From contig DASYKU010000124.1 in assembly GCA_035995165.1 (NCBI GenBank), forward strand, positions 62,001 through 126,000: 64,000 bases of DNA, given 5' to 3'. How positions within the stretch are numbered: position 1 is the first letter of the stretch; every line of letters begins with the position of its first letter. Positions 10,387 to 28,872 of this stretch are shown in pieces. Both the position numbers and the translations under genes were made by a program. The notes beneath the pieces were generated by a model, which ran no database searches, was not told the DNA's origin, and saw only the letters and a list, made by a program, of their open reading frames with translations. This stretch comes from Mycobacteriales bacterium (GTDB lineage: Bacteria > Actinomycetota > Actinomycetes > Mycobacteriales > CADCTP01).

Positions 10387-10463
10387 CTCCTCTACGTTGT
10401 GAATACCTGCTCGGGTGCCCCTCACCAATCGACGCCCGGGCCTTTCCTGGGGGAACAACAATC

Positions 10464-13391
10464 GTGTTGCGTAAGCGCGTGCTGGCCGCGGTCGTCGCGG
10501 CGGCTCTCTCCGCGACCGGCGCCACCGTGGTGTCGCTGTCGCTGTTCGCCGACCAGGCCGGTGCGGTGAGCACACCGCAGTCGACGCTGGTCAGCGACGT
10601 GCCTATGGCGGGCACGCCGAACGTCACCGACGGCTCCGTGCAGACCTTCGTCCAGATGGGCAGCAAGGTCTTCGCCGGCGGCACGTTCACCTCCCTGACC
10701 CTGCCGGGCTCGACGACCGCGGTCTCGCGGACGTACCTGCTCGCGGTCGACGCGACCACCGGCGCGCTGGACACCACCTTCGCGCCCGTCCTCGACGGCA
10801 ATGTGAACGCGCTGCTGCCGGGTCCGACGCCGGGCACCGTCTACATCGGCGGTGCCTTCAACACGGTGAACGGCACGAAGTCGAAAAGCATCGCGCTGCT
10901 CGACGCCACCACCGGCGCGCTGATCCCGACCTTCAAGTTCCCGCCGATGAACGGCGTCGTGAACGACCTGGCGATGACCGGGGGCCGGCTGTTGGTGGCC
11001 GGCACGTTCACCACGCTCGGTCCGAACCCGCGGCCGGGTCTCGGCTCGCTCAACCCGAGCACCGGCGCGGTCGACACCTACCTGACGATCCCGGTGGCCG
11101 GTCACCACAACTACCCGCACTTGGACCGGTTCGGTAACCCCGTCGGCGCCCAGGCCCCGGTCGGCGTCTCCAAGATCGACGTCACGCCGGACGGCACCCG
11201 CATGGTGATGATCGGCAACTTCCTCACCGCCGGCGGCCTGGACCGCGACCAGATCGCGATGGTCAACCTGACCAGCACGACCGCGGCGGTCGACCCGAAC
11301 TGGCGGACCGCCCGGTTCACCGACGACTGCATCTTCAACGCGTACGACAGCTACATCCGGGACGTGGACTTCTCCACCGACGGGGCGTACTTCGTGGTGG
11401 TGGCGACCGGCGGCCCGGCCACCGGCTCGCTCTGCGACAGCGCCACCCGCTGGGAGACCAACGGCAGCGGCACCGCCGTCCAGCCGACCTGGATCGACTA
11501 CACCGGCGGCGACACGCTGCTGTCCGTCGCGATCACCGGCACGGCCGTGTACGTCGGCGGCCACCAGCGTTGGCTGAACAACTCCAACGGCCGTGACTCC
11601 GCGGGCGCCGGCTCCGTGCCGCGCCCGGGCGTCGCCGCCCTGGACCCGGTCAACGGCGTGCCGTTCTCCTGGAACCCCGGTCGCAACCCGCGCGGCGCCG
11701 GTGCGTACGCGGTGTACGCGACGCCCACCGGCCTCTGGGTCGGCAGCGACACGGACTGGATCGGCAACTTCGCGTTGAAGCGCGGCAAGATGGCGTTCTT
11801 CCCGCTGGACGGCGGCACCGCGGTCGGCGCGAACAGCACCGGCCGGCTGCCCGGCAACGTGATCATCGGCTCGCCCACCGCGGCGCCGACCACCGCGGTC
11901 TCCCGGGCCTACGACGGGACGACGGTCGCCTCCACCTCGACGCTGCCCAGCAGCGGCCTGGACTGGAGCACCACCCGCGGCGCGGTCATGGTCGACGGCA
12001 AGGTCTTCTACGGCTCGGCCACCGACAGCAACTTCTACTGGCGGACGTTCGACGGCAGCGTGTTCGGCCCGGCGAACCTGATCGACCCGTACGGCGACCC
12101 GGCGTGGTCCACTGTGGACACCGGCTCCGGGCAGACGTACCTCGGCAGGAAGTCCGGGTTCTACGCGGAGATCCCGAGCGTGACCTCGGAGTTCTACAGC
12201 GGCGGGCGGCTCTACTACACGCTGTCCGGGCAGACGCCGATGTTCTACCGGTACTTCACCCCGCAGAGCGGCATCCTCGGCGCCGACCGCTTCCAGGTCG
12301 CCGGCACGACGAACTGGAGCGACACCGGCGGCGCGTTCCTGGACGGGACGAACCTCTACCTGACGTCCCGCACCGCCGGGAACCTGCGCCGGATCACCTT
12401 CTCCGGCGGGGTCTTCGGGACCACGTCCACCACCGTCAGCGGCCCGGCCGTGGACGGCAAGGACTGGCGGGGCAAGTCGGTGTTCCTGTCCACGATCGGC
12501 GCGAACGTGTTGCCGACCGCGGCCTTCACCACCAACTGCGGCGGGCTGAGCTGCACCGTGGACGGCACGTCCTCCTCCGACCCGGACGGCGCGATCGCCT
12601 CGTACGCCTGGGACTTCGGGGACGGGACGACCGGGACCGGGGCGACGCTGACCCACGCGTACGCGGCGGCCGGGTCGTACACGATCACGCTGACGGTGAC
12701 CGACAGCCGGGGCGGGACCAACACGACCACGCGGCCGGTCACGGTCGCGGCACCGACCACGGTGATCGCCTTCCGGGGCGCGGCCAACGCCAACGTCAAC
12801 GCGGCCACGGTCACCGTCGCCGTGCCGGCGGCGGTGCAGGCCGGGGACGCGCTGGTGGCGACCGCGACGGTCAACGCCGACACCGTGACGGTCGGCGACC
12901 CGGCCGGCTGGACCCGGATCGACACGGCGACCACCACCGGCATCCAGACCATCGTCTGGACCAAGGTGGCGACCGCGACGGACGCCGCCGCGGCCGTGAC
13001 CGTCCCGCTGAGCGGCACGGTGAAGACCAGCCTGACCGTCGCGGCCTGGTCCGGGACCTCGGCGACCAGCCCGGTCGCGGTGTTCGCGCACAAGGTGGAC
13101 ACCGTGGCGACCGCGTCGCACACGACGCCGGCCGTGACCGTGGCGACGCCGGGCAGCTGGGTCGTCTCGTACTGGGCGGACAAGTCCTCGGCCACGACGG
13201 CCTGGACGGCCCCGGCCGGTCAGACCGTCCGCAACGTCTCCATCGGCACGGCGAGCGGGCGGGTCACCTCGCTGCTCACCGACGGCGGGACGACGGCGAC
13301 GCCGGGCGCGGCGGGATCGCTCACCGCGACCACCGACGCGGCCGGGACCAAGGCGACCACCCTCACCCTGGTGCTCGCGCCCGCGAGCTGA
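10464..13391 (+). CDS. Secreted beta-propeller protein with PKD and C-terminal module (paralogue A)
   Basis: A 975-residue exported protein. A signal peptide (about 1-33, cut after GAVS region) precedes repeats such as VFAGGTFTSL, YIGGAFNTV and LLVAGTFTTLG, which are delta-60/beta-propeller-like (about 40-450). A second repeat block (about 480-670) follows, then a PKD domain (about 678-765, containing YAWDFGDGTTGTG) and a C-terminal beta-rich module of about 210 residues (766-975). The start is the GTG at 10464, downstream of GGGGGAA; the open frame extends about 2 kb upstream but that part is antisense to the flippase. Paralogues lie at 21319 and 24879. It is likely a cell-surface or matrix protein associated with the polysaccharide; no catalytic motif was seen. 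Confidence 0.85.
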   Translation: MLRKRVLAAVVAAALSATGATVVSLSLFADQAGAVSTPQSTLVSDVPMAGTPNVTDGSVQTFVQMGSKVFAGGTFTSLTLPGSTTAVSRTYLLAVDATTGALDTTFAPVLDGNVNALLPGPTPGTVYIGGAFNTVNGTKSKSIALLDATTGALIPTFKFPPMNGVVNDLAMTGGRLLVAGTFTTLGPNPRPGLGSLNPSTGAVDTYLTIPVAGHHNYPHLDRFGNPVGAQAPVGVSKIDVTPDGTRMVMIGNFLTAGGLDRDQIAMVNLTSTTAAVDPNWRTARFTDDCIFNAYDSYIRDVDFSTDGAYFVVVATGGPATGSLCDSATRWETNGSGTAVQPTWIDYTGGDTLLSVAITGTAVYVGGHQRWLNNSNGRDSAGAGSVPRPGVAALDPVNGVPFSWNPGRNPRGAGAYAVYATPTGLWVGSDTDWIGNFALKRGKMAFFPLDGGTAVGANSTGRLPGNVIIGSPTAAPTTAVSRAYDGTTVASTSTLPSSGLDWSTTRGAVMVDGKVFYGSATDSNFYWRTFDGSVFGPANLIDPYGDPAWSTVDTGSGQTYLGRKSGFYAEIPSVTSEFYSGGRLYYTLSGQTPMFYRYFTPQSGILGADRFQVAGTTNWSDTGGAFLDGTNLYLTSRTAGNLRRITFSGGVFGTTSTTVSGPAVDGKDWRGKSVFLSTIGANVLPTAAFTTNCGGLSCTVDGTSSSDPDGAIASYAWDFGDGTTGTGATLTHAYAAAGSYTITLTVTDSRGGTNTTTRPVTVAAPTTVIAFRGAANANVNAATVTVAVPAAVQAGDALVATATVNADTVTVGDPAGWTRIDTATTTGIQTIVWTKVATATDAAAAVTVPLSGTVKTSLTVAAWSGTSATSPVAVFAHKVDTVATASHTTPAVTVATPGSWVVSYWADKSSATTAWTAPAGQTVRNVSIGTASGRVTSLLTDGGTTATPGAAGSLTATTDAAGTKATTLTLVLAPAS

Positions 13392-13504: not shown

Positions 13505-14392
13505 TCAGGCGCGCCAGCTGGGGGGCGCGCCGAGCCAGGACTCGAGCTCCGCGTCGGAGTCGGCGAGCCGGCCCTCCAGCGAGGTCCGCAGGGAGTCCGG
13601 CATCGGCGCGCGCGGCCGGGCGTTGTGCTTGTCGAACACGACGCCGCCGGCACGGCCGATGCCGAGGAAGTCGACGACCTCGTCGAAGACCGGCTCCGGG
13701 TCGGTGAAGAACCGCTGGCTGTCCACGACGTGCATCCGGTCCCGGCCGAACAGCCCCGCCAGCCGTGCCAGCTGCGCCGCGTACCGCCCGCGGGTCACGT
13801 ACGCGTGGTGCTGGTGCGAGTGGGACTGGTACGTCGGGTCGGCGATCAGCTTGGCCTCCTCGCCCGCCAGCCGGACCGGCTCCAGCTCCAGCGCCTTGGA
13901 GAACGGCTCGGTCTCGAAGCCCCGGGCCGTCTCGTGGGTGTGGGCCGAGTACGCCCGCTCGACCGGGTCGCGCAGCAGCACCAGCAGCTTCACGCCCGGC
14001 AGGTCGTTCTCGATCCGCTTCCCGGCCAGCGGGTGGAACAGGTAGTACGGGCTGGACTCGCCGGTGATCGGCAGCCGGTCCGGCGCCGGCGCGGCCCGGC
14101 GGGCGCTGGCCAGGAGCGGGAAGTGACCGCGGTACCAGGCGGGCCCGTGCCCGTAGCCGGTGTCGAAGTAGTGCGCGCCCTTGTGCAGCACGGCCGGCAG
14201 CACCATCGGGTGCTGGGACAGCGTCTTGTACATCGACGTCGTCCCGCAGCGCTGCGCCCCGACGATGAGGAACGACGGCGTCATCCGGGCCGAGGCGGTG
14301 AACCGCCCGGTCGTCCGCGCCGTCGCCCGGGCCAGCTCCTGCAGCCGCGGCTGCTCCTTGAGCGTGGACTTGAGCGTGCCTACCCCCACCAC
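13505..14392 (-). CDS. PAPS-dependent sulfotransferase (Sulfotransfer_1 type)
   Basis: A 295-residue sulfotransferase of the heparan N-deacetylase/N-sulfotransferase-like type. The 5'-PSB loop FLIVGAQRCGTTSMYKTL is at about residues 43-60, GESSPYYLFHP follows, and the 3'-PSB LLVLLRDPVERAYSAHTHE is near 140-160. This branch includes enzymes acting on polysaccharides, so it is a good candidate for sulfating the exported glycan. The GTG at 14392 is chosen because AGGGGAGGGG lies 8 nt upstream and the gene above ends at 14416; the longer frame overlaps that gene. It is the last gene of a minus-strand run from 19985. Confidence 0.87.
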   Translation of the reverse strand: MVGVGTLKSTLKEQPRLQELARATARTTGRFTASARMTPSFLIVGAQRCGTTSMYKTLSQHPMVLPAVLHKGAHYFDTGYGHGPAWYRGHFPLLASARRAAPAPDRLPITGESSPYYLFHPLAGKRIENDLPGVKLLVLLRDPVERAYSAHTHETARGFETEPFSKALELEPVRLAGEEAKLIADPTYQSHSHQHHAYVTRGRYAAQLARLAGLFGRDRMHVVDSQRFFTDPEPVFDEVVDFLGIGRAGGVVFDKHNARPRAPMPDSLRTSLEGRLADSDAELESWLGAPPSWRA

Positions 14393-14415: not shown

Positions 14416-15642
14416 TCAGCGCGCGACGACCGGTGCGGCCGCCCGAGCGGCGGCCAGCACCCCCTCGGTCATGCTGCGCCAGCTCCCCCACCTTGTCTGA
14501 CCGTCGCCGACGTACCGGGTCAGGATCTCGACCAGGTAGAGCGCGGCGACGACCGCCGCGGACTCGGCCGGTACCCCCACCGGCGCGAGCAGCCCGGGCG
14601 CCCGCCGGACCGAGTCGGCCGCGGCCCGGCCGGCCTGCTCGACGTGCGCGAGCGCCCGCGGCTGCAGGTCGTAGTGCAGCGCGTCGAAGCCGACCGGCAC
14701 GCCGCCGCCGAACCGCTCCCAGTCCCAGGCCAGCACCGTGTCCGCGACGACCGCCGTGTTCCACGGGGTCCAGTCGCCGTGCCAGGAGCCGATCCGCAGG
14801 TCGGTGGTCGCGCCGGCGAGCGAGTCCAGGGCGGCGATGAGCCCGTCGCGGGCCTCGCCCGGCGGCAGGTCCGCGACCCGCTTGCGCAGCCCCCGCACGT
14901 ACGGGCCGTCGACCGGCTCGGTCGAGATGCCGCCCACGGCCGCGACCTCGGCGGTGGCGGCGGCGAGCCGCTCGTCGGAGGGGCGGCGGGGGCGGCGGAC
15001 CGGCAGCGGGGACTGGACCAGGATCTCCAGCCCGCGCCAGGACCCGCCGGACAGCGCCTTTGGCGGGGTCACCTGCCGCAACCCGGCCTTGGCCAGCATC
15101 CGCAGCGTCGCGGTCTCGGCCGCGACCAGCCGGCCGGTGAGCACGGTGGTGGCGACCTTCGCGTACCCGACCGTACGGCCGTCGCCGTCGAGCAGCTGCA
15201 GGACGGGCTTGCGGTTCGCCCGGGCCGGCCCGAGGTGCAGGCTCATCAGCACCGGCCGGCCGAGCTCGCGGGAGAGGTGGTCCTCGATCGTGTCGCCGGC
15301 CCCGATCTCCAGCCGGTCCGGGACCAGCCGGTCGCCGGCCCCGGTCCGCAGCGCGGCGGCGGCCAGCCGGACCGCGAGCCGGCGGGCGGTCGAGGACTGC
15401 TCGCCGTAGCCGCGGACCGCGCCGCCGGCGGCCCGCGTCGTCCGCCGCGGCACCAGCAGCCGCGGGTGGGCCAGGCTGGGCAGGATCAGGTACGAGCGCC
15501 GGGCGCCCGCGTGCCGGGCCCGGCCCAGCGTCGCGGTGGCCGGCGCCGGCCAGAGCAGCGGGACCAGCTCGCGCAGGTACGCGACCCGGTCGTCGATCCC
15601 CTCGGCCGCGCGGGCCGGCGTCCCCCCGTGGTCCCCGGTCAC
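14416..15642 (-). CDS. Putative phosphotransferase of the aminoglycoside-kinase fold
   Basis: A 408-residue protein of unknown substrate. The C-terminal half has the kinase-fold catalytic loop HGDWTPWN (H288-N295) and a WDWERF segment about 15 residues later matching the metal-binding aspartate of APH/choline-kinase-like enzymes. The N-terminal half (about 1-200) has no family that I recognise, though the AKVATT segment may hold the ATP-binding lysine. The GTG start overlaps the stop of the O-antigen-ligase-like gene (GTGA), so it is translated with it. It might phosphorylate a sugar or lipid precursor of the glycan; this rests on context alone. Confidence 0.65.
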   Translation of the reverse strand: MTGDHGGTPARAAEGIDDRVAYLRELVPLLWPAPATATLGRARHAGARRSYLILPSLAHPRLLVPRRTTRAAGGAVRGYGEQSSTARRLAVRLAAAALRTGAGDRLVPDRLEIGAGDTIEDHLSRELGRPVLMSLHLGPARANRKPVLQLLDGDGRTVGYAKVATTVLTGRLVAAETATLRMLAKAGLRQVTPPKALSGGSWRGLEILVQSPLPVRRPRRPSDERLAAATAEVAAVGGISTEPVDGPYVRGLRKRVADLPPGEARDGLIAALDSLAGATTDLRIGSWHGDWTPWNTAVVADTVLAWDWERFGGGVPVGFDALHYDLQPRALAHVEQAGRAAADSVRRAPGLLAPVGVPAESAAVVAALYLVEILTRYVGDGQTRWGSWRSMTEGVLAAARAAAPVVAR

Positions 15643-17054
15643 GCCGCCTCCGCCTCCTCGTCCTTCAGGCGCCAGAGGATTCCGACGGCGATCATCTGGA
15701 TGGCCAGCGGCCAGCCGACGGCGGAGTAGACGAACATGAACCACATCGACATCAGGATCGTCATCTGCGCCCCGATGCCGACGGCTGATCGCACTCCTCG
15801 GTAGTGCCAGAGGATCGCGAGGAAGAACGCCAGGTAGAGCCCCATCCCGACGAAGCCCTGGGCGAAGATCGTCAGCCAGAAGTGGCCGGTGCTGCCGATG
15901 TCGGCGTTGCCGCAGCGGGCACAGTTCGAGGACGTGCCGACCGCGATCGACTGGTAGCTGCCGCGGACCTCACGGGTCGTGCCCCAGCCGACGACCGGTG
16001 ACTCGACCGCGCCCTGGAACGCCGCGTGCGCCAGGTTGGACCGGATGTCGTTGCTGTGCCCGTGGTCGAGCCGTTCCTGGACGACCGTGGCCAGCGGCGA
16101 GGCGGCGAAGACCACCGCCAGCGTGCCGACCGCCGCGGCCAGCCCGATGACCGTGGCCAGCCGGCCGCTCATCACCATCCGGGCGGCGAGCAGCAGCACC
16201 CCGAGCCCGAGACCGATCCAGAGCCCGCGGTTGAGCGAGTTGACGATCGGGATGAGCGCGACCAGCAGCACGCCGACCGCGAACAGCCGGAGCCGGGCCC
16301 GGGCCATCAGGCCCCAGACGATGAACCAGACGACCAGCAGCCCGGTGACGTTGCCCCAGGTGTTGGTGTACTCGAACGGCGCCTTCGGCCGGGGCGCGGT
16401 GAAGCCCAGCACGTCCTGGTTCTGCGCGGCCGACGGGTGCACCAGCACCTTGACGTACCCGTTGGAGGTCAGCGCGTGCGGCAGCACGAGCTCCACCGGC
16501 GAGGAGAAGTTGAAGCCGGGCGCGGCCAGGCCGAGCAGGCCGCCGGCGATCGCGACCACGAACAGCGTGGCCAGACAGTTGAGGATCGTCCGGACGGTCA
16601 GCCCGCGGGTCCGCATGTTGCCGACGTAGAGCATGACGATCGCGGAGGCGACGTAGTTGAACAGCCGCAACGAGTACGCGATGAGCTGGCTCGGCGCCCC
16701 GTGCGGCAGCGTGTCCGGCGCGGTCTTGCCCAGCATCAGCACGCTGACCAGCACGGCCAGCAGGAAACAGAGCCAGAGCGCGAACCCGCGCGGCACCCGC
16801 AGCGGCTTGATCCGGCGCAGCTGCCGGGCCATCGGGATGCTGAAGATGATGATCGAGAAGCTGCCGAGGCCGAGCGCCCACCAGAGCGGGAAGAACCCGA
16901 CCAGCGCGACGAAGGGCCAGTACTGCGGCAGGCGCAGCCCGTGCGAGCGCAGCGCCCGGGTCAGCCACGGTCCGGTGCGGTGCGCGCTGTGCGCGGCGGT
17001 GTCGCCCGGGCCGCGGTCGCTGGGCCGGAACGGCCGGTCGACGGTGCTCGTCAC
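15639..17054 (-). CDS. O-antigen ligase/polymerase (Wzy/WaaL) family membrane protein
   Basis: A 471-residue polytopic membrane protein with about 11-12 helices. A large extracytoplasmic loop lies after the middle (around HGHSNDIRSNLAHAAF and VGWGTTREVRGSYQ), including NSLNRGLWIGLGLGVLLL, typical of Wzy_C/O-antigen ligase proteins. It would either polymerise flipped repeat units or attach the polymer to its anchor. The GTG start overlaps the stop of the DUF3048 gene by GTGA; the upstream part of the open frame is a shadow. Two cysteines (NCARCGN) sit in the large loop and could form a disulfide outside the cell. Ligase and polymerase cannot be separated by sequence alone. Confidence 0.85.
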   Translation of the reverse strand: MTSTVDRPFRPSDRGPGDTAAHSAHRTGPWLTRALRSHGLRLPQYWPFVALVGFFPLWWALGLGSFSIIIFSIPMARQLRRIKPLRVPRGFALWLCFLLAVLVSVLMLGKTAPDTLPHGAPSQLIAYSLRLFNYVASAIVMLYVGNMRTRGLTVRTILNCLATLFVVAIAGGLLGLAAPGFNFSSPVELVLPHALTSNGYVKVLVHPSAAQNQDVLGFTAPRPKAPFEYTNTWGNVTGLLVVWFIVWGLMARARLRLFAVGVLLVALIPIVNSLNRGLWIGLGLGVLLLAARMVMSGRLATVIGLAAAVGTLAVVFAASPLATVVQERLDHGHSNDIRSNLAHAAFQGAVESPVVGWGTTREVRGSYQSIAVGTSSNCARCGNADIGSTGHFWLTIFAQGFVGMGLYLAFFLAILWHYRGVRSAVGIGAQMTILMSMWFMFVYSAVGWPLAIQMIAVGILWRLKDEEAEAA

Positions 17055-18016
17055 GTGGCCACCTGCTGGGAACCGGGGGGCATGAGCACGACCCAGGTCG
17101 AGCCGGCCGCGAACCGCAGCGGCACCGACGCGTGGTCGACATAGCTGGTCACGCCCGGGACGGACCGCTTGATCCAGGTGCAGGGCGTGTACGTCGTCCC
17201 GGAGAACGCGTAGCAGCTGCCGGTACCGAGCACGCGGGCACTCTGCGCGTCCCGGTCCGGGTCGCGCAACCGCACCGCCTTGTACTCGACGGTCTGCACG
17301 ATGAGGTTGCTCACCGCGACCCCCGGCGTCCCGGCCCGGGTCCACCGTTTCGCCGCGGCCGAGTACGTCCAGGTCTCGGCCGCCCCGCCCGGCGCGGTCA
17401 GGGTCACCGCGGAGGCGCTGCGCTTCAGGCTGGTGGTGAACGCGTCCCCGGTCGAGGCGTACGACAGCACCTGGGTCGGCGGCAGGGAGCCGGCCGGAGC
17501 GGCGGCCAGCACGGTGCTGGTCGAGGTCGTCGAGCCCGAGCTGACCTGGGCGATCCTGGCCTTGGCCAGCAGCTCCTCGACGCCGCTGGCGCCGCCGGTG
17601 TTGGCGTAGACCGGGCGCAGCATCGGCAGCAGCTGCGGGTCCAGCGGCCGGACGCTGCCGACCGGGCCGATGTCGGTGGCGTCCCGGGACTGGAAGACCG
17701 CGACCACGCGCGGCCCCCTCGGCGTCTCGTACTCCTGGTAGACGAGGTCGGCCTTGTCCAGGCCGACGGCACCGGACAGCGGCAGCGACACCACGACCGC
17801 CGGCCGCTTCGCCACCGCGGCCGAGACCGGGGTCGCGGTCAGCGGGGCGAGCGGCGTGTCCGCGGCGGTGCTGGGCGCCGCGGCCGTGGTCGCCGCGGCG
17901 GTCGTCGGGACCGGCGAGGCCGGCGAGGCCGGTTGCAGGCTGACCGTCGGGCTGCCCCCGCAGGCCGCCACCAGCAGGACCGCGCCGAGCGGCAGGAGGG
18001 TCTTCGCTCGGGACAC
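17051..18016 (-). CDS. DUF3048-domain lipoprotein
   Basis: A 321-residue lipoprotein. The lipobox LLVAAC puts the lipidated cysteine at residue 19. A Thr/Ala/Pro linker (about 25-65) precedes a DUF3048 (YerB-type) domain with the family signature VYQEYETPRGPRVVAVFQS and VGSVRPLDPQLLPML. The function of DUF3048 is not established. Its GTG start lies 4 nt after the stop of the Wzz-kinase-like gene, and its end overlaps the O-antigen-ligase gene, so it is translationally tied to the export machinery and may be an extracytoplasmic accessory factor. Confidence 0.8.
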   Translation of the reverse strand: MSRAKTLLPLGAVLLVAACGGSPTVSLQPASPASPVPTTAAATTAAAPSTAADTPLAPLTATPVSAAVAKRPAVVVSLPLSGAVGLDKADLVYQEYETPRGPRVVAVFQSRDATDIGPVGSVRPLDPQLLPMLRPVYANTGGASGVEELLAKARIAQVSSGSTTSTSTVLAAAPAGSLPPTQVLSYASTGDAFTTSLKRSASAVTLTAPGGAAETWTYSAAAKRWTRAGTPGVAVSNLIVQTVEYKAVRLRDPDRDAQSARVLGTGSCYAFSGTTYTPCTWIKRSVPGVTSYVDHASVPLRFAAGSTWVVLMPPGSQQVAT

Positions 18017-18020
18017 CGGC

Positions 18021-19985
18021 TCAGTCCGCCGCCGGGCGGGTGATCCGCCGGGTCGGCTCGTCGATGGCCGCCTCGACCGCCGGGTCGTCCGCGCCGGCCG
18101 GCAGGTGGCCGTTGCCGGTCACGCTCCCGTTGGCCTTGCCGCCGGCCTTGGTGCCGTTGGTCTTCGCGGCGGTGCCGTTGGCGGGCGTATGCCCGTTGGT
18201 GGCGATCCCGTTGGTACGGGCGGTCCGGCCGTTCGTGGTCCCGTTGGCCCGGCTCTCCAGCTGCTGGGTCAGGTCGTCGGCGGCCGCGCCGTAGCGGTCC
18301 TCGGCGCCGTACCGGTCCTCGGCGCCGTACCGGTCCTCCGCGCCGTACCGGTCCTCCGCGCCGTACCGGTCCGAAGTGGACGGTGCGGGCGGGGTGAAGC
18401 GGTCGGGCGCGTAGCCCCGGTCGGCGGCCGCGGCCGGAGTGGCGGCGGCGGTGGCGGCGGGCTGGGCCCGCTTCTCCCGGCGCACCGGCACCCGCGGCAT
18501 CGCGACCATCCCGATCGAGCGGGTGCCGACCAGGTCGATCAGCCGGGCCGCACGCAGCACCTCGTCGTGCGTGGTGGCGCCGAGCTCGACCACCAGCACG
18601 GTCACGTGGGCGAGCCGGGCCAGCGTCTGGGCCTGCGAGCCCGAGGACATCGGCGGCGCGTCGATGACGACGAACCGGGCCGAGTGCCGGAACTGGCGGA
18701 TGGCCTGCTCGGTGAGGAAGACCTGGGTCGCCTCGCTGGTGAGCTCGGCCTCGGCGCCGGGCGGGATGACCCGCAGGCCGTGCGCGGTGGCCGGGCGCTG
18801 CTCCAGGTCGGAGACGCTGTAGCCGCCGTGCAGAAGCTCGGACAGGCCGGGCGCGGTCGGGTCGAGGTCGAGGATCTGCCGGCCGCTGGAGGAGGGGTCG
18901 GCGCAGACCAGCACGGTGTCCAGGTTCATCCGGGCCAGCGAGACGGCCAGGTTGGCGGCGACGATGCTGCCGGCCGGCCCGTCGGAGGCGCCGGCGACCA
19001 GGATGATCTGCTCCCGGTCGGACACCAGTGAGACCAGCACGTTCCGCAGCTCGCTGAACGCGTTGCCCTGCCGGCTGTGCGTGCTCTGCACCAGGCTGAA
19101 GTCGGTCCGGGTGCCGGAGGGCACCTCGACCAGCACCGGCACGTCGAACTGACGCTCCAGGTCGACCGAGCGGCGGACCCGTTTGTCGGCCCGCTCGATC
19201 GCGAACGCGAGCATCAGCCCGAACAGCAGCCCCAGCAGCAGGCCGCTGGCGATGGCGAGGATGCCGAGCGGACCGGAGGCCGTGCTCGGCAGCTGCGCGT
19301 CGGTGGTGATCAGCCCGGGATCGATCTGGGTGGTCTGCAGCGGGATCAGCCGGCCCTGCAGGATGTTCAGCTGGTCGGTGATGGTGTTGACCTGCGCCTG
19401 CGCGGCGGCGTGGTCGGCCGAGGTCGGCGACAGCGCCGCGAGCTGGCTCGAGTACTTCCTCAGCGCGACCCCGAGCGTGTTGACCTGGGTCTGCAGCGCC
19501 TTGATCTGAGCGCTGGTGCTGGCCTTGGCCGTGTCCCCGCGCACGGCGAGGTACGCCTCGGCGAACGCGTGCGCGCCCTGCTGGGCGGCCAGCGGGTTGT
19601 CGGTGGTGAAGGCGATGTTGAGGAACGAGGTGTTCGCCGGCACGGTGATCGAGACCGCCTTGCCGAGCTCCTCCGGCGTGACCGAGGTGCGCAGCAGGTC
19701 CCGGGCCTTGGTCTCCACCAGCGTCGACTTGACCAGCTGGGCCTCGGTGTCGAGGTTGACCTCGCCGGACGTGCGGCCGTTGGCCACCGCGCTGTCCGAC
19801 CCCGTCGCGTTGACCTGCACGCTGGCGGTCGAGGTGTACTGCTGGGTGCGGGTGGCCGTGAAGGCGTAACCGGCGCTGACGCCGACCAGCAGGCCCAGAG
19901 CGATGGCCCACCAGCGCCGCTTCGCGAGACGCAGGTAGTCGCCCAGCTGGAGCGTGCTCCCACCGGACGAGCGCATCTGGCTCAC
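18021..19985 (-). CDS. Wzz/BY-kinase-like chain-length regulator with degenerate Walker A
   Basis: A 654-residue protein. Wzz-type N-terminal part: helix 1 about 24-45, extracytoplasmic coil, helix 2 about 243-265. The cytoplasmic part (about 300-500) has the CpsD/CapB tyrosine-kinase fold, but the Walker A lysine is absent: the GxGKST site reads G336-P-A-G339-S-I. The first aspartate of Walker A' is Cys (VLVCADP), while Walker B FVVIDAPP is kept. Residues about 537-567 carry five copies of DRYGAE, giving five evenly spaced tyrosines, followed by a low-complexity tail rich in Asn-Gly. The GTG start has AAGGGGGT upstream. It likely still sets chain length, but ATP binding is doubtful. First gene of the operon leading to 13505. 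Confidence 0.87.
   Translation of the reverse strand: MSQMRSSGGSTLQLGDYLRLAKRRWWAIALGLLVGVSAGYAFTATRTQQYTSTASVQVNATGSDSAVANGRTSGEVNLDTEAQLVKSTLVETKARDLLRTSVTPEELGKAVSITVPANTSFLNIAFTTDNPLAAQQGAHAFAEAYLAVRGDTAKASTSAQIKALQTQVNTLGVALRKYSSQLAALSPTSADHAAAQAQVNTITDQLNILQGRLIPLQTTQIDPGLITTDAQLPSTASGPLGILAIASGLLLGLLFGLMLAFAIERADKRVRRSVDLERQFDVPVLVEVPSGTRTDFSLVQSTHSRQGNAFSELRNVLVSLVSDREQIILVAGASDGPAGSIVAANLAVSLARMNLDTVLVCADPSSSGRQILDLDPTAPGLSELLHGGYSVSDLEQRPATAHGLRVIPPGAEAELTSEATQVFLTEQAIRQFRHSARFVVIDAPPMSSGSQAQTLARLAHVTVLVVELGATTHDEVLRAARLIDLVGTRSIGMVAMPRVPVRREKRAQPAATAAATPAAAADRGYAPDRFTPPAPSTSDRYGAEDRYGAEDRYGAEDRYGAEDRYGAAADDLTQQLESRANGTTNGRTARTNGIATNGHTPANGTAAKTNGTKAGGKANGSVTGNGHLPAGADDPAVEAAIDEPTRRITRPAAD
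18286..18375 (-). repeat. Five tandem 18-bp repeats encoding DRYGAE
   Basis: Five head-to-tail 18-bp units (18286, 18304, 18322, 18340, 18358), nearly identical at DNA level (GCGCCGTACCGGTCCTCx on the plus strand). Each encodes one DRYGAE hexapeptide. The low divergence suggests recent expansion by slippage, so copy number may vary between strains. Confidence 0.95.
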
Positions 19986-20125
19986 TACGTACCCCCTTCA
20001 CCCTGGACGCGAGAAGTCTCTCGCATGCGCAGGTGTGGTCCACCGCCGGCCGCGGGACGCCGACGTTCGAATCGGTCTCAACGTTAGCCCGTACGGCGGT
20101 CGACCCACGGGTGAACCCGGAGATT

Positions 20126-20137
20126 TGAGATCTCTCA
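20126..20137. promoter_or_regulatory. Small inverted repeat in a divergent promoter region
   Basis: TGAGA-TC-TCTCA lies in the 250-nt region between the Wzz-kinase-like gene (start 19985) and the GT14 gene (start 20236). It could be an operator half-site pair, but it is short and no regulator can be named. Confidence 0.2.
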
Positions 20138-20235
20138 CCCAGCCAGGGTTCAGCGTATGCTCCGAGCCCTTACCGACCCGGGTCGGCTCGGTCCGAGCCC
20201 CGGTTCCTCGCCCGCGCCGGATCCTGGGGGAACGA

Positions 20236-21162
20236 GTGCGCGTCTGCTACCACATCCAGTCCCACACGCTGCCCGCCCAGCTGGTGCGGTTGATCCGGAC
20301 GATCCGTACGTCCAGCCCCACCGGCCTGGTCGTCGTGAGCCACTCGGTGACCGGCCCGGAGCTGGAGCTCGGCGAGCTGGCGGACGACCCCGCGGTGATC
20401 GTCCGCCGGGTCCCCAACGGCTACGGTGACTTCTCCCACATCGACCGCTGGCTCGAGGTGGTCGACCTGCTCGTCGAGCGGGGCGAGGACTTCGACTGGC
20501 TGTGCAACCTCAGCGGCCAGGACTACCCGCTGGTGCCGCTGGCGCAGGCCGAGCGGGAGCTGCTCGAGGGCGGCGCGGACGGCTACCTCCAGCTCTACCC
20601 GGTCTTCACCGCCGGCGGGAAGTGGCCGCGCAGCAAGGGCCTGACCCGGTACGCCTTCCGCTACGCGCGGCTGCCGCTGCCGCCGAAGGCCCTGCGGTTG
20701 CTGCGCCCGCTCGCCGCGGTGAACAAGGTGCAGCCGCTGATCCGCGTCAACGCCGCGTACGGGGCGTTCGGGGTGCGGCGGCCGGTGCCGATCCCGCTGC
20801 CGCAGTTCTGGGGCGGTTCCTTCTTCTGCTCGCTCTCCCGCGAGTGCGTGCTCTACGTCCGGGACTGGGTCCGGCAGAACCCTCGGCTGGTCCGCTACTT
20901 CCGCGGGGTGCTCGCGCCGGAGGAGGTGTTCTTCCAGACCGTGCTGCGCGGCGCCGGCCGGTTCGAGCTGACCGCGGACAGCAAGCGCTACTTCGACTTC
21001 CGGGAGAGCAAGGGCAATCACCCGAAGGTGCTGCGGGTGGCCGACCTGCCCCGGATGGAGTCCCGCGGCGCGCACTTCGCCCGCAAGATCGACGAGCGCG
21101 TCGACCCGGAGCTGATCGACCTGCTCGACGAGCGGGTGCTCGGAGTTACGCACTCTCAGTAG
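20236..21162 (+). CDS. GT14 (core-2/I-branching type) glycosyltransferase
   Basis: A 308-residue glycosyltransferase of the Branch family (GT14). Recognisable parts are the N-terminal VCYHIQSHTLPAQLVRL, NGYGDFSHIDRWLEVVD, the signature CNLSGQDYPL (about residues 94-103), FWGGSFFCSLSRECV and LAPEEVFFQTVL. GT14 enzymes usually add beta-1,6-linked GlcNAc or xylose branches; bacterial members are scattered in exopolysaccharide loci. The GTG at 20236 follows GGGGGAACGA, the same leader type used by the propeller genes nearby; the longer frame has no such site. It may add a side branch to the repeat unit. Confidence 0.82.
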   Translation: MRVCYHIQSHTLPAQLVRLIRTIRTSSPTGLVVVSHSVTGPELELGELADDPAVIVRRVPNGYGDFSHIDRWLEVVDLLVERGEDFDWLCNLSGQDYPLVPLAQAERELLEGGADGYLQLYPVFTAGGKWPRSKGLTRYAFRYARLPLPPKALRLLRPLAAVNKVQPLIRVNAAYGAFGVRRPVPIPLPQFWGGSFFCSLSRECVLYVRDWVRQNPRLVRYFRGVLAPEEVFFQTVLRGAGRFELTADSKRYFDFRESKGNHPKVLRVADLPRMESRGAHFARKIDERVDPELIDLLDERVLGVTHSQ

Positions 21163-21318
21163 TCATTTCATTGCGCAGAACGCACGAACGAGTGTGATCA
21201 CGGTGCGTGTTCGCTGTGAGTTGCCGATTCGGGTTCCGAGAGCCCGTCATTGCCCGTACGGTCCGCACGTCTGCCGGACGGGGGCGTCGCCTCCCGCCGA
21301 TGTTCCTTTGGGGGGAAT

Positions 21319-24300
21319 GTGACGAGACGATGGGTGGCTGCCGTCCTGGCGGCCTTGGTGGGGACCCTGCTGGCGGTACAGCCGGCCTGGGCGGTCAACG
21401 CCCAGCAGAGCACGGCCGTGAACGCGGTCCCGTCGGCGGCCACGCCGAACGCCGTGGGCGGAGCCGTCTTCTCGATGGCTCAGGTCGGCACGACGATCGT
21501 GATGGGCGGCGCGTTCACCTCGATGCAGTCGCCGAACCGGGCGACCACGTACAACAACATGCCGTACATCGCCGCCTTCGACCAGAACACCGGTCAGGTC
21601 GTCACGACGTTCGCGCCCGGCCTGGACGGGGCGGTCAACGCCGTGCTGCCCGGCCCGACCGCCGGCACCGTGTACGTCGGCGGCAACTTCAACAACGTCG
21701 GCGGGGTCAAGGCCAAGGGCCTGGTGCTGCTGAACGTGACCACCGGTGCCCGGGTCGCCGGCTTCGCCGCGATCAGCATGAACGGCATCGTCAACAGCGT
21801 GCAGCGGCTGGGTGCCCGGCTGTTCGTCGGCGGCACGTTCACCTCGATCGGCGGCCAGACCCGCGGCGGCATCGCCTCGATGAGCGCCACCACCGGCGCC
21901 GTCGACTCGTTCGTCACCAGCACGGTCACGGTCAACCACAACTGGACCTCGACCAACGGCGGGGCCAAGGCGGCGGTCGGTGTCTCGAAGATCGACATCA
22001 CCCCGGACGGCTCCCGGATGGTCGCGATCGGCAACTTCAAGCTCGTCGACGGGCTGTCCCGCGACCAGGTCGCGATGTGGAACCTGTCCGCCACCGGCGC
22101 CACCCTCCGCGCCGACTGGCAGACCCACCGCTACGAGGCGGCCTGCTTCTCCTGGGCGTACGACTCCTACATCCGGGACGTCGACTTCTCCCCGGACGGC
22201 TCGTACTTCGTGATCGCCGCGACCGGCGGTGGCAACGGCACGCTCTGTGACACCGCGGCCCGGTTCGAGACCGACGCGACCGGCACCGACATCCAGCCGA
22301 CCTGGGTCGACTACGCCGGTGGTGACACCGTGCTGTCGATCGCGATCACCGGCACCGTGGTCTACGCCGGCGGTCACATGCGCTGGATGAACAACCCCAA
22401 CGCGAGCGACTTCGCCGGTGGCGGCTCCGTGCCGCGGCCGGGCCTGGTCGCCCTCGACCCGGCCAACGGCATCCCGCTGACCTGGAACCCGGGGCGCAAC
22501 CCGCGCGGCGCCGGCGCGTACTCGCTGCTGGCCACTCCGCAGGGGCTCTACGTCGGCAGCGACACCGACTACATCGGCAACCGGAAGTACTTCCACGGCA
22601 AGATCGCCTTCTTCCCGCTGGCGGGCGGCGTCGCGCCGGCCTCCACCGCGGTGCAGGCGCTGCCGGGCGGCGTCTACCTGGGCGCGTCCCAGCAGGCCGC
22701 CGCGTCCAACGTGCTCTACCGGGTCAACGCCGGCGGCAGCGCCGTGCAGGCCGTCGACGCCGGTCCGGACTGGTCCGACGGCTCCGGCAACGTCAGCGGC
22801 GGCAACAACGCCGGCTACAGCCCGGTGCCCAACGTCGACGCGAGCGTGCCGGCGACCACCCCGCGCTCGATCTTCGACAGCGAGCACTGGGGCGCGCAGA
22901 GCTGGACCTTCCCGATCCCGTCCGGGTCCACGGTCAAGGTGCGGCTCTACTACGCCAACCGGTGCGGCTGCACCTCCGGCGTCGGGCAGCGGGTCTTCAA
23001 CGTCGCCATCAACGGCACCGCGGTGCAGTCCTCGTACGACATCGTGGCCAACGTCGGCGACCAGACCGGCACCATGAAGGAGTTCCCGGACATCACCGCC
23101 GCCGCGGACGGTGCGGTCCACATCGACTTCAGCAACCAGGTCGAGAACCCGCTCATCAACGGCATCGAGATCGTCCGTACCGACATCGCGGCCCCGCCGG
23201 CCGGCGCCGCGGGCGCGCTGACCGAGCGCAACTTCGACGGCAGCACCGCGGGTGCCGCGACGGCCGTGACCTCGCCGCTGGACTTCAGCACCGTGCGGGG
23301 CGCGACCCTGGTCGGCAACCAGCTCTACTACGGCAAGACCGACGGGCTGTTCTACCGGCGGACCTTCAACGGCGCCACGTTCGGGGCCGAGGAGCTCGTC
23401 GACCCGTACAACGACCCGGCCTGGGTGAACGTCGACACCGGCTCCGGCCAGACGTTCAAGGGCCAGCGGCCGTCGTTCTACAACGAGATCACCAACATCA
23501 CCGCGATGTTCACCGACGGCTCGGGCCAGCTGTACTACAAGCTGCTCGGCGACTCGAACCTCTACAAGCGCTCGTTCAGCGCGGACAGCGGGATCATCCA
23601 CGACAACCGGATCGCGACCGGGACCCAGCTGCCCGACATCACCGGGGCGTTCTACTCCGGCGGGAACCTCTACTACGCGACCCGCGCGGACGGGAACCTG
23701 TCCAAGGTCGGCTTCTCGGCCGGCACGCTGACCGGCGCCGCGACCGTGGTGAGCGGCCCGGCCTCGGACGGCGTGGACTGGCGCTCCCGGGCGCTGTTCC
23801 TCGGCCCGCGCATCGCGGCCAACACCCCGCCGACCGCGGTCGCCGCGGTGACCTGCTCGGGGCTGGACTGCTCGGCCACCGCGGCCGGCTCGGCCGACAG
23901 CGACGGCACGATCGCCTCGTACTCGTGGGCGTGGGGGGACGGCACCACCACGACCGGCTCGACCTCGACCCACTCGTACACGACGGCCGGGCCGTACACG
24001 GTCACGCTGACCGTGACCGACAACGACGGCGGGACCGCGACGGCGACGAAGCCGGTCACCGTCACGGCGCCGCCGCCGGTGACCAACCCGATCACCTTCC
24101 GGGCCACGGCCGGCAACCAGGCCAACGCGACCTCGGCGAAGATCACCGTGCCGGCGACCGTGCAGGCCGGCGACGGCCTGGTGCTGGTGATGACCAGCAA
24201 CAGCAACACGGTCACCTACGGCGACCCGGCCGGCTGGGCCGTCGCGAACACGGTCAGCACGACCGGCATCACGACGAAGGTCTACTCGAAGGTCGCGACC

Positions 24301-24717
24301 GCGACCGACGCCGGCTCGGTCGTCACGGTCACCGCGAGCGCCGTGAACAAGATGGACCTGCGGCTGGCCGCGTACGGCAACACGAGCACCACGGCGCCCG
24401 TCGCCACGGTGACCACCGCGGTCGACACCGCCGCGGTGGCGGCCCACACGACGCCGGCGGCCTCCGTCACCGGCAGCGGCAAGTGGGTCGTCTCGTACTG
24501 GGGTGACAAGTCGGCGGCAACGGCGGCCTGGACGGCTCCGGCCGGCCAGACGGTGCGCGGGGTCACGATCGGCACCGGCGCCGGGCGGGTCACCTCGCTG
24601 CTCACCGACGCGGGGGCCGCGGCCGCCGCGGGCCCGGCCGGCGGGCTGACCGCCACGACCGACGCCCCCGGCACCAAGGCGACGATGCTGACGATCGTGC
24701 TCAACCCGGCCTCCTAG
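21319..24717 (+). CDS. Secreted propeller-malectin-PKD protein (paralogue B)
   Basis: A 1132-residue exported protein. A signal peptide (about 1-27, ending AWA) is followed by delta-60/propeller-like repeats (about 30-460; e.g. VMGGAFTSM, YVGGNFNNV). A malectin-like carbohydrate-binding domain is inserted at about 467-620 (YRVNAGG start, RLYYANRC, FNVAINGTAV, VHIDF, INGIEIV). A second propeller block (about 635-830), a PKD domain (about 834-920) and the same C-terminal module as paralogue A (about 922-1132) follow. The GTG start sits after TTTGGGGGGAAT. It is about 60% alike to paralogue A by eye outside the malectin insert. The malectin domain suggests glycan binding, in keeping with a role on or in the polysaccharide layer. 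Confidence 0.86.
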   Translation: MTRRWVAAVLAALVGTLLAVQPAWAVNAQQSTAVNAVPSAATPNAVGGAVFSMAQVGTTIVMGGAFTSMQSPNRATTYNNMPYIAAFDQNTGQVVTTFAPGLDGAVNAVLPGPTAGTVYVGGNFNNVGGVKAKGLVLLNVTTGARVAGFAAISMNGIVNSVQRLGARLFVGGTFTSIGGQTRGGIASMSATTGAVDSFVTSTVTVNHNWTSTNGGAKAAVGVSKIDITPDGSRMVAIGNFKLVDGLSRDQVAMWNLSATGATLRADWQTHRYEAACFSWAYDSYIRDVDFSPDGSYFVIAATGGGNGTLCDTAARFETDATGTDIQPTWVDYAGGDTVLSIAITGTVVYAGGHMRWMNNPNASDFAGGGSVPRPGLVALDPANGIPLTWNPGRNPRGAGAYSLLATPQGLYVGSDTDYIGNRKYFHGKIAFFPLAGGVAPASTAVQALPGGVYLGASQQAAASNVLYRVNAGGSAVQAVDAGPDWSDGSGNVSGGNNAGYSPVPNVDASVPATTPRSIFDSEHWGAQSWTFPIPSGSTVKVRLYYANRCGCTSGVGQRVFNVAINGTAVQSSYDIVANVGDQTGTMKEFPDITAAADGAVHIDFSNQVENPLINGIEIVRTDIAAPPAGAAGALTERNFDGSTAGAATAVTSPLDFSTVRGATLVGNQLYYGKTDGLFYRRTFNGATFGAEELVDPYNDPAWVNVDTGSGQTFKGQRPSFYNEITNITAMFTDGSGQLYYKLLGDSNLYKRSFSADSGIIHDNRIATGTQLPDITGAFYSGGNLYYATRADGNLSKVGFSAGTLTGAATVVSGPASDGVDWRSRALFLGPRIAANTPPTAVAAVTCSGLDCSATAAGSADSDGTIASYSWAWGDGTTTTGSTSTHSYTTAGPYTVTLTVTDNDGGTATATKPVTVTAPPPVTNPITFRATAGNQANATSAKITVPATVQAGDGLVLVMTSNSNTVTYGDPAGWAVANTVSTTGITTKVYSKVATATDAGSVVTVTASAVNKMDLRLAAYGNTSTTAPVATVTTAVDTAAVAAHTTPAASVTGSGKWVVSYWGDKSAATAAWTAPAGQTVRGVTIGTGAGRVTSLLTDAGAAAAAGPAGGLTATTDAPGTKATMLTIVLNPAS

Positions 24718-24764: not shown

Positions 24765-24878
24765 TTCAATTCATCACCGAAAGTAGTGCTTTCCCGAAGT
24801 ATCTGAGCGGCCCTCCGAATGCTCCTAGGATTCGTCAGGGGGCCGTCGTGGGGCGGCTGCGGACTTCCGGGGGGAAGA

Positions 24879-26153
24879 ATGCGGGGAAGGCTTTTCGCAG
24901 TCAGTGCTGCGACGGTGTTCTGTACGGCGCTCGTCGCCGCCACCGGCGCGGTAGGTGCCGACGCGTCCATCGGGCTCGGCACGGTGGTGAGCACCAACCC
25001 GGTGAACTACACGCCGAACGTCACCAACGGTGCGGTCTACAAGACCGCCGAGATCAACGGCATGCTCTACGCGGGCGGCTCGTTCACCTCGGTCGCCGCC
25101 GCGGCCGGGACGTCGCCGCAGGGCACGTTCGGCCGGGCGCACATCGTGGCCTTCAACGCCGCGACCGGGTCGGTCTCGACGGCTTTCGCGCCCAACGTGA
25201 ACGGCGCGGTCTGGGCGATCGTCGCCGGCGGCAGTTCGCTGTACGTCGGCGGGTCCTTTTCCAGCGTCAATGGCGTCGCCCGGCGCGGAATCGTGAAACT
25301 CGATCCCGTCACCGGCGCCGTCGACAGCGCGTTCAACGCGAAGCTGAGCGGGAACGTGTCCGAGGCCGCGGTCGTGAACGGGCGGCTGATCGTCAGCGGC
25401 ACGTTCGCCAAGAAGATCGCCGCGCTGAACCTGACCACCGGCGCCGACACCGGCTACATCACCGTCCCGATCACCGGGTCGGTCGCGCCCAACGCCGGCG
25501 CGGTCGAGGTCTACCGGTTCGCGGTCAACCCGGCCGGGACCCGACTGGTCGGCATCGGCAACTTCACGGCGGTCGGCGGGCAGACCCACTACCGCGCGCT
25601 CATGCTCACCCTTGGCGCGACGTCGGCCACCGTGAACGCCTGGCGGTACAAGCCGCTCGAGGTCGCCTGCTCGGCGCCGAAGCTCCCGGACCAGACCCGG
25701 GACGTCGACTTCTCCCCGGACGGGTCGTACTTCGTGATCGTCGCCACCGGCGGCACGCCGTCGCGAGGCCAGGGCGCGGTCGGCATCTGCGACGCCGCGG
25801 CCCGCTTCGAGACCGACGTCGTCGCGCCGGCCAAGCCGACCTGGATCAACTACACCGGCGGCGACACGCTGCACTCGGTCGCCGTCAGCGACAAGGCCGT
25901 GTACGTCCAGGGTCATCAGCGCTGGCTGGACAACCCGCAGGGCCACGACAACCCCGGTCCGGGCGCGGTCGCCCGGCAGGGGATCGGTGCCATCGACCCG
26001 GTCTCGGGCAAGGCGCTGCCCTGGAACCCCGGCAAGGACCGCGGCGTCGGCGGGCGGGACCTGCTGATCACGCCGCGCGGGCTGTGGGTCTCCAGCGACA
26101 CCGCGCACATCGGCGGCGAGACCCGGATGCGGGTCGCCCTGCTGCCGGTCTGA
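24879..26153 (+). CDS. Secreted beta-propeller protein (paralogue C, short form)
   Basis: A 424-residue exported protein with a signal peptide (about 1-27) and a single propeller block like the first block of paralogues A and B. Shared motifs include LYAGGSFTSV, LYVGGSFSSVNG, RDVDFSPDGSYFVIVATGG, YTGGDTLHSVAV and GHQRWLDNPQGHDN. It lacks the second block, the PKD domain and the C-terminal module, so it is either the ancestral core or a shortened copy. The ATG is chosen because CCGGGGGGAAGA lies immediately upstream. It sits alone between a terminator and a low-complexity gap. Surface location is likely; the function is unknown. Confidence 0.83.
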   Translation: MRGRLFAVSAATVFCTALVAATGAVGADASIGLGTVVSTNPVNYTPNVTNGAVYKTAEINGMLYAGGSFTSVAAAAGTSPQGTFGRAHIVAFNAATGSVSTAFAPNVNGAVWAIVAGGSSLYVGGSFSSVNGVARRGIVKLDPVTGAVDSAFNAKLSGNVSEAAVVNGRLIVSGTFAKKIAALNLTTGADTGYITVPITGSVAPNAGAVEVYRFAVNPAGTRLVGIGNFTAVGGQTHYRALMLTLGATSATVNAWRYKPLEVACSAPKLPDQTRDVDFSPDGSYFVIVATGGTPSRGQGAVGICDAAARFETDVVAPAKPTWINYTGGDTLHSVAVSDKAVYVQGHQRWLDNPQGHDNPGPGAVARQGIGAIDPVSGKALPWNPGKDRGVGGRDLLITPRGLWVSSDTAHIGGETRMRVALLPV

Positions 26154-27921: not shown

Positions 27922-28872
27922 GTGGATCCGACCATCGTCATTGCCGGGCTGATCGTGGGTGTCCTGGTGGGCCTCACCGGCATGGGCGGCGGGGCGCTGA
28001 TGACGCCCGTGCTCGTCCTGCTGTTCGGCGTCCAGCCGCTCGCCGCGGTCTCCAGTGACCTCGTCGTGTCGCTGTTCATGAAGCCGGTGGGCGGCTTCGT
28101 CCACCTCAGGCACGGGACCGTGCACTTCTCGCTGGTGAAGTGGCTGTGCGTCGGCTCGGTGCCGGCCGCGTTCGGCGGCGTGCTGCTGCTGCGGGCGCTG
28201 GGCGACGGCGAGCGCGTGCAGAACGTCGTCAAGTACGCGCTCGGGGTCGCGCTGCTGCTGGCCGTGGTGACGATGTGCGCCCGCGGCCTGCTCGACCTGC
28301 GCCGGCACGGGAAGTCCTGGCGCGCCGGCAGGCAGGGGGGCGTCGCGGGCAGCCCGCATCCCTTGGTCGTCCGCGTTGTTCCTACTGTTCTGATCGGGGT
28401 CATCGGCGGGGTGGTGGTCGGGATGACCTCCGTCGGGTCCGGCTCGCTGATCATCGTGCTGCTCCTGGTGCTCTACCCGCGGCTGCGGGCGGGGGAGCTG
28501 GTCGGGACCGACCTGGTGCAGGCCGTCCCGCTGGTCGGTGCGGCCGCGCTCGGGCACGCCCTGTTCGGACAGGTCCAGATCGGGCTCACGTTGGGGCTGC
28601 TCGTCGGCGCGATCCCGGGCGTGTGGCTCGGGGCCCGGCTGTCCAGTCGCGCGCCGCAGATGGTGGTACGCCGGGCGCTCGCGCTCGTGCTCATCGCGTC
28701 CGGGCTGAAGCTGCTCAACGCGTCCAACGGCCAACTGCTGGCCGCGCTCGTGATCGTCGGGATCGCCGGCCCGTTGCTGTGGATGGCGGCGCGGCGGCGG
28801 GTAGGGCTGCCGGCGTCCTGGCGGACGGAACGGCGCATGGTCACCGCCGAACGCGAGACCGTCGCAAGCTGA
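27922..28872 (+). CDS. TauE/SafE (TSUP) family anion transporter
   Basis: A 316-residue membrane protein of the TSUP family, with two repeats of about four helices. The first opens with IAGLIVGVLVGLTGMGGGALMTPVL, the second with VLIGVIGGVVVGMTSVGSGSLI; the paired G-x-G(S)-G motifs are typical. Members move sulfite, sulfate, sulfonates or other anions. Standing head to head with the APS kinase gene (124-nt gap), it probably brings in sulfate for PAPS synthesis or exports sulfite. The GTG start follows AGGGGGG. The substrate is inferred from context. Confidence 0.85.
   Translation: MDPTIVIAGLIVGVLVGLTGMGGGALMTPVLVLLFGVQPLAAVSSDLVVSLFMKPVGGFVHLRHGTVHFSLVKWLCVGSVPAAFGGVLLLRALGDGERVQNVVKYALGVALLLAVVTMCARGLLDLRRHGKSWRAGRQGGVAGSPHPLVVRVVPTVLIGVIGGVVVGMTSVGSGSLIIVLLLVLYPRLRAGELVGTDLVQAVPLVGAAALGHALFGQVQIGLTLGLLVGAIPGVWLGARLSSRAPQMVVRRALALVLIASGLKLLNASNGQLLAALVIVGIAGPLLWMAARRRVGLPASWRTERRMVTAERETVAS

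Follow-up and report, generated by a model that had tools for sequence, protein, structure and literature searches.

A WpsK-type co-polymerase family with a probable BY-pseudokinase domain, encoded beside sulfation genes in actinobacteria

Described co-polymerases and the locus in the window

In textbook accounts, Wzx/Wzy co-polymerases are switched by the autophosphorylation of BY-kinases, and Wzc of E. coli and CapAB of S. aureus represent the active PCP-2/BY-kinases. BY-pseudokinase co-polymerases are also already known. EcpK/EpsV of Myxococcus xanthus and HfsB/HfsA of Caulobacter are BY-pseudokinase PCP-2 pairs proposed to act as scaffolds, and the same report names single-chain pseudokinase co-polymerases in Proteobacteria, namely SMc01795, BCETI_6000729, Mlr8439, and VV1_2305 (PMC12004946). 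In Actinoplanes missouriensis, the wps-1 cluster (wpsA–K) encodes GT2, sulfotransferase, WecG, DUF4262, GH26, methyltransferase, Wzx, a further sulfotransferase, a kinase-like protein, Wzy, and Wzz, and AMIS_7390, an ATP-sulfurylase/APS-kinase gene, adjoins wpsK (PMC13390465). According to that report, deletion of wpsK resulted in squashed sporangia from which few spores were released, deletion of wpsI gave the same kind of squashed sporangia, and deletion of AMIS_7390 caused severe sporangium defects, which its authors considered unexpected and linked to sulfur amino acids (PMC13390465). WpsK is treated there simply as Wzz, and the words "tyrosine" and "Walker" are absent from the text (PMC13390465). 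The synechan (xss) locus of Synechocystis is also reported to direct the synthesis of a bacterial sulfated exopolysaccharide but is cyanobacterial (PMC8205485). No description of the actinobacterial clade considered below as pseudokinases, with near-complete loss of the kinase switch and a link to sulfation genes, was found in the open-licence literature, in which searches for such a clade and for sulfated polysaccharides of actinomycetes yielded PMC13390465 and PMC12004946 as the only relevant papers.

The window, that is, the whole stretch of 64,000 nucleotides that was analyzed, encodes at 18021–19985 (minus strand) a WpsK-type polysaccharide co-polymerase of 654 aa, comprising a Wzz domain, two predicted membrane helices, a BY-pseudokinase domain, and a disordered tail. 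The reading frame of 654 codons is intact and genuine, and its GC3 of 0.97 ruled out a chance open reading frame. Four genes follow on the same strand. They encode a DUF3048 lipoprotein-like protein located between the co-polymerase and Wzy (17051–18016; PF11258/PF17479), a Wzy-type polymerase/O-antigen-ligase-like membrane protein in the wpsJ position (15639–17054; family profile 582.6 bits, with the L044 member matching PF04932), an APH-like kinase in the wpsI position (14416–15642; family profile 485.8 bits, PF01636 sub-threshold in a member), and a sulfotransferase in the wpsH position (13505–14392, start approximate; PF00685/PF13469, family profile 422.6 bits). GTGA overlaps were found at the DUF3048–Wzy and Wzy–kinase junctions, and Wzy starts with GTG. 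The APH-like kinase carries the motif HGDWTPWN, and the corresponding HGDxxxxN motif was present in 31/31 members scanned. Also on the minus strand are genes for the Wzx-type flippase WpsG (8355–10292, start approximate; family profile 512.3 bits, with the L088 member matching PF01554) and a WpsE-like GH26-like protein (6081–7148; family profile 408.9 bits), the latter scoring 19.8 bits with PF02156, just below the cut-off of 20.2. Since Wzx lies opposite, the plus-strand open reading frame from 8364 is too long.

PAPS synthase, composed of ATP sulfurylase-like and APS kinase parts, is encoded at 26445–27797 (minus strand; PF01583 194.7 bits, family profile 474.9 bits, with the L037 member also matching PF01747); its open reading frame extends to 28454, and the translation suggests that the start is probably near 27797. 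In total, the window contains four sulfotransferase genes. Besides the one in the wpsH position, these are a Sulfotransfer_3 gene at 7338–8288 (plus strand; PF13469, 48.3 bits), a gene at 3982–5529 in which a GT28 C-terminal domain is fused to a sulfotransferase (minus strand; PF04101 and PF13469), and a fourth gene at 138–974 (minus strand; PF13469, 98.7 bits). The divergent neighbor of the co-polymerase gene, at 19954–21162 (plus strand), encodes a Core-2/I-branching-type glycosyltransferase (PF02485, 30.6 bits), and members of this glycosyltransferase cluster adjoin the gene in seven loci, the window included.

The gene order is thus of the wps-1 type, wpsK-J-I-H, and the genes for Wzx, GH26, and PAPS synthase are close by. 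Like WpsK in the description of wps-1, the protein combines Wzz with a C-terminal domain and is encoded in a Wzx/Wzy locus together with sulfotransferases and counterparts of WpsI, the GH26 protein WpsE, and AMIS_7390; by gene order, it is probably orthologous to WpsK. The window locus differs from wps-1 as described there in the DUF3048 gene that separates wpsK from wpsJ, in additional sulfotransferases, and in secreted proteins with PKD matches. The reading that we favor, with a probability of roughly 78%, is that the protein is a co-polymerase that works independently of phosphorylation, has a BY-pseudokinase domain as a scaffold, and acts in the synthesis of a sulfated exopolysaccharide.

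Kinase motifs in the protein and its family

The Wzz domain was recognized at aa 12–93 (19707–19952, minus strand) by PF02706 with 29.8 bits against a cut-off of 25.5, and the signature NLDTEAQ within it (19737–19757, minus strand) is invariant in the family alignment. The C-terminal domain, aa 267–498 (18492–19187, minus strand), was assigned to the BY-kinase fold by structure match and is catalytically degenerate; PF13614 (AAA_31) gave 18.2 bits, under its cut-off of 27, and the NCBIfam BY-kinase models scored far under theirs. The AlphaFold model, for which 33 sequences from the window and the family loci were used, had a mean pLDDT of 79.9; most core blocks exceeded 90, and the tail was disordered beyond approximately residue 500. 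Predicted helices 25–45 and 241–266 flank the Wzz domain in the model and are presumably membrane-inserted. Residues 267–498 of the model superposed on CapA1B1 (4jlv) with Z 30.9 and an rmsd of 1.9 Å over 224 residues (VIA-align) and on the Wzc kinase octamer (3la6) with Z 30.7; the Foldseek list was topped by full-length Wzc, and the family profile matched Wzc and CapAB chains. The predicted architecture is therefore that of PCP-2a proteins, with Wzz between two helices fused to a BY-kinase-fold domain, and the model suggests a Wzc-type single-chain co-polymerase in which the kinase domain is apparently inert.

A sequence-only reading of this DNA had proposed that the nucleotide-binding lysine is replaced in G-P-A-G-S-I at residues 336–341 and that Walker A' is altered while Walker B remains, and all three observations proved correct for this protein. 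In the alignment with BY-kinases, the degenerate Walker A GPAGSI (18963–18980, minus strand) has Gly339 at the lysine position. The altered Walker A', VLVCADPSSSG at aa 358–368 (18882–18914, minus strand), retains a single aspartate (D363) in CADPSSSG, has lost LRRP, and does not fit the [DE]xDLRRP pattern. Walker B, FVVIDAPP at aa 438–445 (18651–18674, minus strand), retains Asp442. The EX2RX2R position reads NAFSELR, with N, S, and R at the three key sites, so this motif is missing too. An intact P-loop elsewhere in the protein, which would have spoken against that reading, did not occur anywhere in its sequence in a scan with the patterns [AG]x4GK[ST] and G[KR][ST][TVL]; nor did the analysis yield any sign of ATP binding by homologues devoid of the lysine, the other finding that would have contradicted it. 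The protein thus has a BY-kinase fold devoid of catalytic Walker residues except for the Walker B aspartate. It resembles EcpK and HfsB, which have a BY-kinase fold without Walker motifs, are required for Wzx/Wzy polysaccharide, and are proposed to be scaffolds; however, those are stand-alone Gram-negative proteins without a tyrosine tail, whereas the window protein is a single actinobacterial chain with a re-grown, tyrosine-bearing tail (PMC12004946).

Relatives were gathered from named genomes with peptide patterns from the Wzz half (the NLDTEAQ and FAEAYL regions of a six-protein alignment), and their selection was therefore independent of the state of the P-loop. Of the 307 relatives found in this pattern scan, the best 80 were kept and, together with eight earlier loci and the window protein, made up 89 family rows. 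They represent 88 distinct proteins, since L100 apparently duplicates the L006 contig, having a contig of equal length and an identical motif; it was excluded from the tree and from the conservation, sulfotransferase-linkage, and gene-order counts. The hosts of the best 80 of 307 are mostly Micromonosporaceae, with Geodermatophilaceae, Glycomyces, Actinomadura, and Phycicoccus also present. The initial extraction (L004–L032) had placed eight proteins and the window protein in the pseudokinase group and 16 in the canonical group, and omitted five (L010, L013, L014, L021, and L024); among the latter, the P-loop lysine is missing from L013 and L014, the site reads GRS in L021 and GKS in L024, and L010 stops before the domain. 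The 16 canonical actinobacterial BY-kinases were picked for a recognizable Walker A, and the lysine found in 15/16 of them is thus not an independent result.

The Walker A lysine was found in 0/89 family rows (88 distinct, including the best 80 of 307), the position being occupied by Ala, Ser, Thr, Gly, Asn, or Leu. Glutamate replaces the Walker B aspartate in 74/89 rows, the Walker A' aspartate is retained in 11/89, and the first glutamate of EX2RX2R is changed to arginine in 78/89 rows versus glutamate in 16/16 canonical rows. The idea of a pseudokinase, put forward from the sequence alone, is therefore supported by a lysine missing from every row and by erosion of the other kinase motifs. 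The window protein is unlike most of its relatives in retaining the Walker B aspartate and one Walker A' aspartate and in having tail tyrosines. Compared with Wzc and CapAB, with which it shares fold and domain order, the family lacks the Walker A lysine, has an altered Walker A', has lost EX2RX2R, and in most members is devoid of the tyrosine tail. In a quick, unrooted tree, canonical and pseudokinase rows were split across one branch with an SH-aLRT of 99. A single loss of the kinase motifs in the family is likely on this tree, in which the window protein, L007, L011, L012, and L078 form long branches. A class-wide sample of 148 genomes gave matches at E <= 1e-60 in 25, including the genome of the window. 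The 24 others had GK[ST] at the site in two cases (L201 and L205) and GRS in one (L203), and some, Wzz relatives from other actinobacteria, apparently lack the kinase-fold domain altogether (L191, L194, L195, and L198); these are weaker matches that may be outside the family.

The pseudo-P-loop is of unchanged length in most family rows, and its entropy was 1.04 bits versus 1.46 bits for the domain (1.48 versus 1.83 bits after thinning to 22 rows), ranking 21st among 183 windows of the domain; L011, L012, and L100 were excluded from this calculation. Since it varies less than the domain does overall, it appears to be kept rather than decaying. Drift of the kinase half of a gene that has lost its function could account for the missing motifs and for the slippage seen in the repeat array of the tail, but the reading frame is intact, the fold and the motif replacements are conserved family-wide across several actinobacterial families, and the positional counterpart is required in A. 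missouriensis (PMC13390465); we consider gene decay hardly credible. A domain that still binds a nucleotide in spite of the missing lysine, with the ligand holding the ring together structurally but no phosphate being transferred, would agree with the rank and the preserved length of the loop and with the retention of D363 and D442 in the window protein. However, six different residues, from Gly to Leu, occupy the lysine position, Walker B mostly has Glu, and the conservation could equally be explained by core packing or a protomer interface, and this variant is unlikely.

Sulfation genes and the proposed co-polymerase function

The usual gene order in the family runs from PAPS synthase through co-polymerase, Wzy, APH-like kinase, sulfotransferase, and Wzx to GH26, and in 76 of 79 family loci taken from the best 80 of 307, Wzy is located directly downstream of the co-polymerase in the same orientation. 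Neighboring genes fell into strong clusters, in an analysis in which the gene caller overlooked the main gene in 8/80 loci. A sulfotransferase or PAPS-synthase profile match was present in 78/79 family loci (from the best 80 of 307), a figure that is partly built in since family loci served to train the profiles; the sole locus without a match, L056, is on an 8.5-kb contig. The result for canonical BY-kinases is not affected by this training: such matches occurred in 0/20 of their loci within about 9 kb on each side, also at a looser threshold, although other sulfotransferase families could escape these profiles. Divergent members in five genomes (G011, G005, G013, G024, and G053) have sulfotransferase or PAPS-synthase genes nearby, and no such genes were detected at the L172 and L175 loci, which are outside the main clade (genomes listed as G057 and G036). 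Judged from this gene content, the product is probably a sulfated exopolysaccharide. Because the gene is linked to sulfotransferases family-wide, the data suggest that AMIS_7390 supplies PAPS for the sulfotransferases of its locus rather than sulfur amino acids.

The favored co-polymerase would be a WpsK-type PCP-2a protein, its Wzz domain lying outside the cytoplasm between a pair of membrane helices and its BY-pseudokinase domain inside. In the actinobacterial family, all or most members have lost the EX2RX2R glutamate, the tyrosine tail, and, from the Walker motifs, the P-loop lysine, the Walker B aspartate, and most of Walker A', while keeping the fold. Together with Wzx, Wzy, the sulfotransferases, and the PAPS synthase of the same locus, the protein could produce a sulfated exopolysaccharide, its pseudokinase domain serving as a scaffold for oligomerization and partner binding that steers the chain length set by Wzy without tyrosine phosphorylation. 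By analogy with EcpK, such a scaffold may work by binding. If so, the results from A. missouriensis can be read simply, WpsK being a pseudokinase co-polymerase and AMIS_7390 providing PAPS for sulfotransferases. A large actinobacterial clade in which the switch is lost and the fold kept, in loci for a presumed sulfated polymer, would also be a natural test of the need for phosphorylation.

Beside PAPS synthase, the window contains genes for a TauE/SafE sulfite-exporter-like protein (27937–28714, plus strand) and an Rrf2-type regulator (29968–30357, plus strand), so that this area looks like a sulfur-handling region. Genes for large proteins of the secreted type with PKD, malectin, and beta-propeller-like matches (approximately 10400–13391, 21250–24717, and 24819–26153, all on the plus strand) are interleaved with the polysaccharide genes.

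The tyrosine tail and other kinases

The sequence-only reading had also pointed to five evenly spaced tyrosines in DRYGAE repeats, and these are indeed present: four DRYGAE units and one DRYGAA begin at residues 539, 545, 551, 557, and 563, placing Tyr541, 547, 553, 559, and 565 at every sixth residue, and Tyr525 is a sixth tail tyrosine. They are encoded by a tandem array at 18284–18372 (minus strand) with a period of 18 bp, 4.9 copies, and 95% match. Its units, the last one excepted, differ solely at third codon positions, and such near-identity indicates recent slippage. Tail tyrosines are absent from 65/89 family rows, and a further 22 rows have one or two; the exceptions are the window protein with six and L007 with ten. 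The family median is 0 (89 rows) versus 3.5 in the 16 canonical proteins. The final 120 residues of L078, to which the window protein is closest in the tree, are free of tyrosine, both branches being long. An ancestral phospho-cluster was therefore rejected on the evidence of the family tails, and the DRYGAE repeats look secondary, a recent local 18-bp expansion within a disordered tail rather than a leftover autophosphorylation cluster.

The earlier proposal that another kinase phosphorylates the protein was not supported. Under this explanation, a separate kinase would modify the tail tyrosines in trans, making the pseudokinase a substrate and leaving oligomerization under phospho-control. 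Five regularly spaced tyrosines amid acidic residues would suit it, as would the tyrosine-rich tail of L007, whose host genome G053 encodes an intact BY-kinase (635 bits), the APH-like kinase of the locus with its motif conserved in all members scanned, and three genes of the LMW-phosphatase family in the genome of the window. However, none of these phosphatase genes is on the contig of the window, 87/89 family rows have at most two tail tyrosines, and the DRYGAE array is a young tandem repeat. Moreover, the substrates of APH-fold kinases are mostly small molecules. A search of the window's own genome, rated 100% complete, for a second intact BY-kinase with the canonical profile and TIGR01007 found none: with the canonical profile, the best match was the gene itself, at 120.3 bits through its kinase half, whereas no other gene exceeded 28.1 bits, and TIGR01007 gave no match above its cut-off. 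The remaining matches, of 26–36 bits, were rejected since none exceeded the family cut-off, and may be MinD/ParA-like ATPases. Among 10 genomes with the family gene, an intact BY-kinase above 580 bits was present in five and not detected in four, G024 being equivocal, which indicates that there is no fixed partner. With no intact BY-kinase detected in its own genome, no fixed partner in others, and a recently slipped repeat, phosphorylation in trans is unsupported and, in our view, very unlikely.

A slightly smaller chance still is given to a direct link between kinase loss and sulfation, in which the pseudo-P-loop was repurposed, for example, for binding of PAPS/PAP or of a sulfotransferase, Wzy extension was gated on sulfated repeat units, and the re-grown tyrosine-rich and acidic tails of the window protein and L007 became a substrate of the APH-like kinase or a sulfotransferase. 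For the phosphorylation-independent co-polymerase favored here, the tyrosine tail of the window protein is probably incidental; its tyrosines may serve some other purpose, as the sequence-only reading also suggested, or may be without any. The tail was also compared with the other proteins of the genome, and a match to C87 reads as low-complexity sequence, so a tail common to another protein was rejected. The tyrosine-rich tail of L007 (L007:1138-3657:+), with 10 tyrosines in 334 residues, is a second, independent one and occurs in a genome with an intact BY-kinase.
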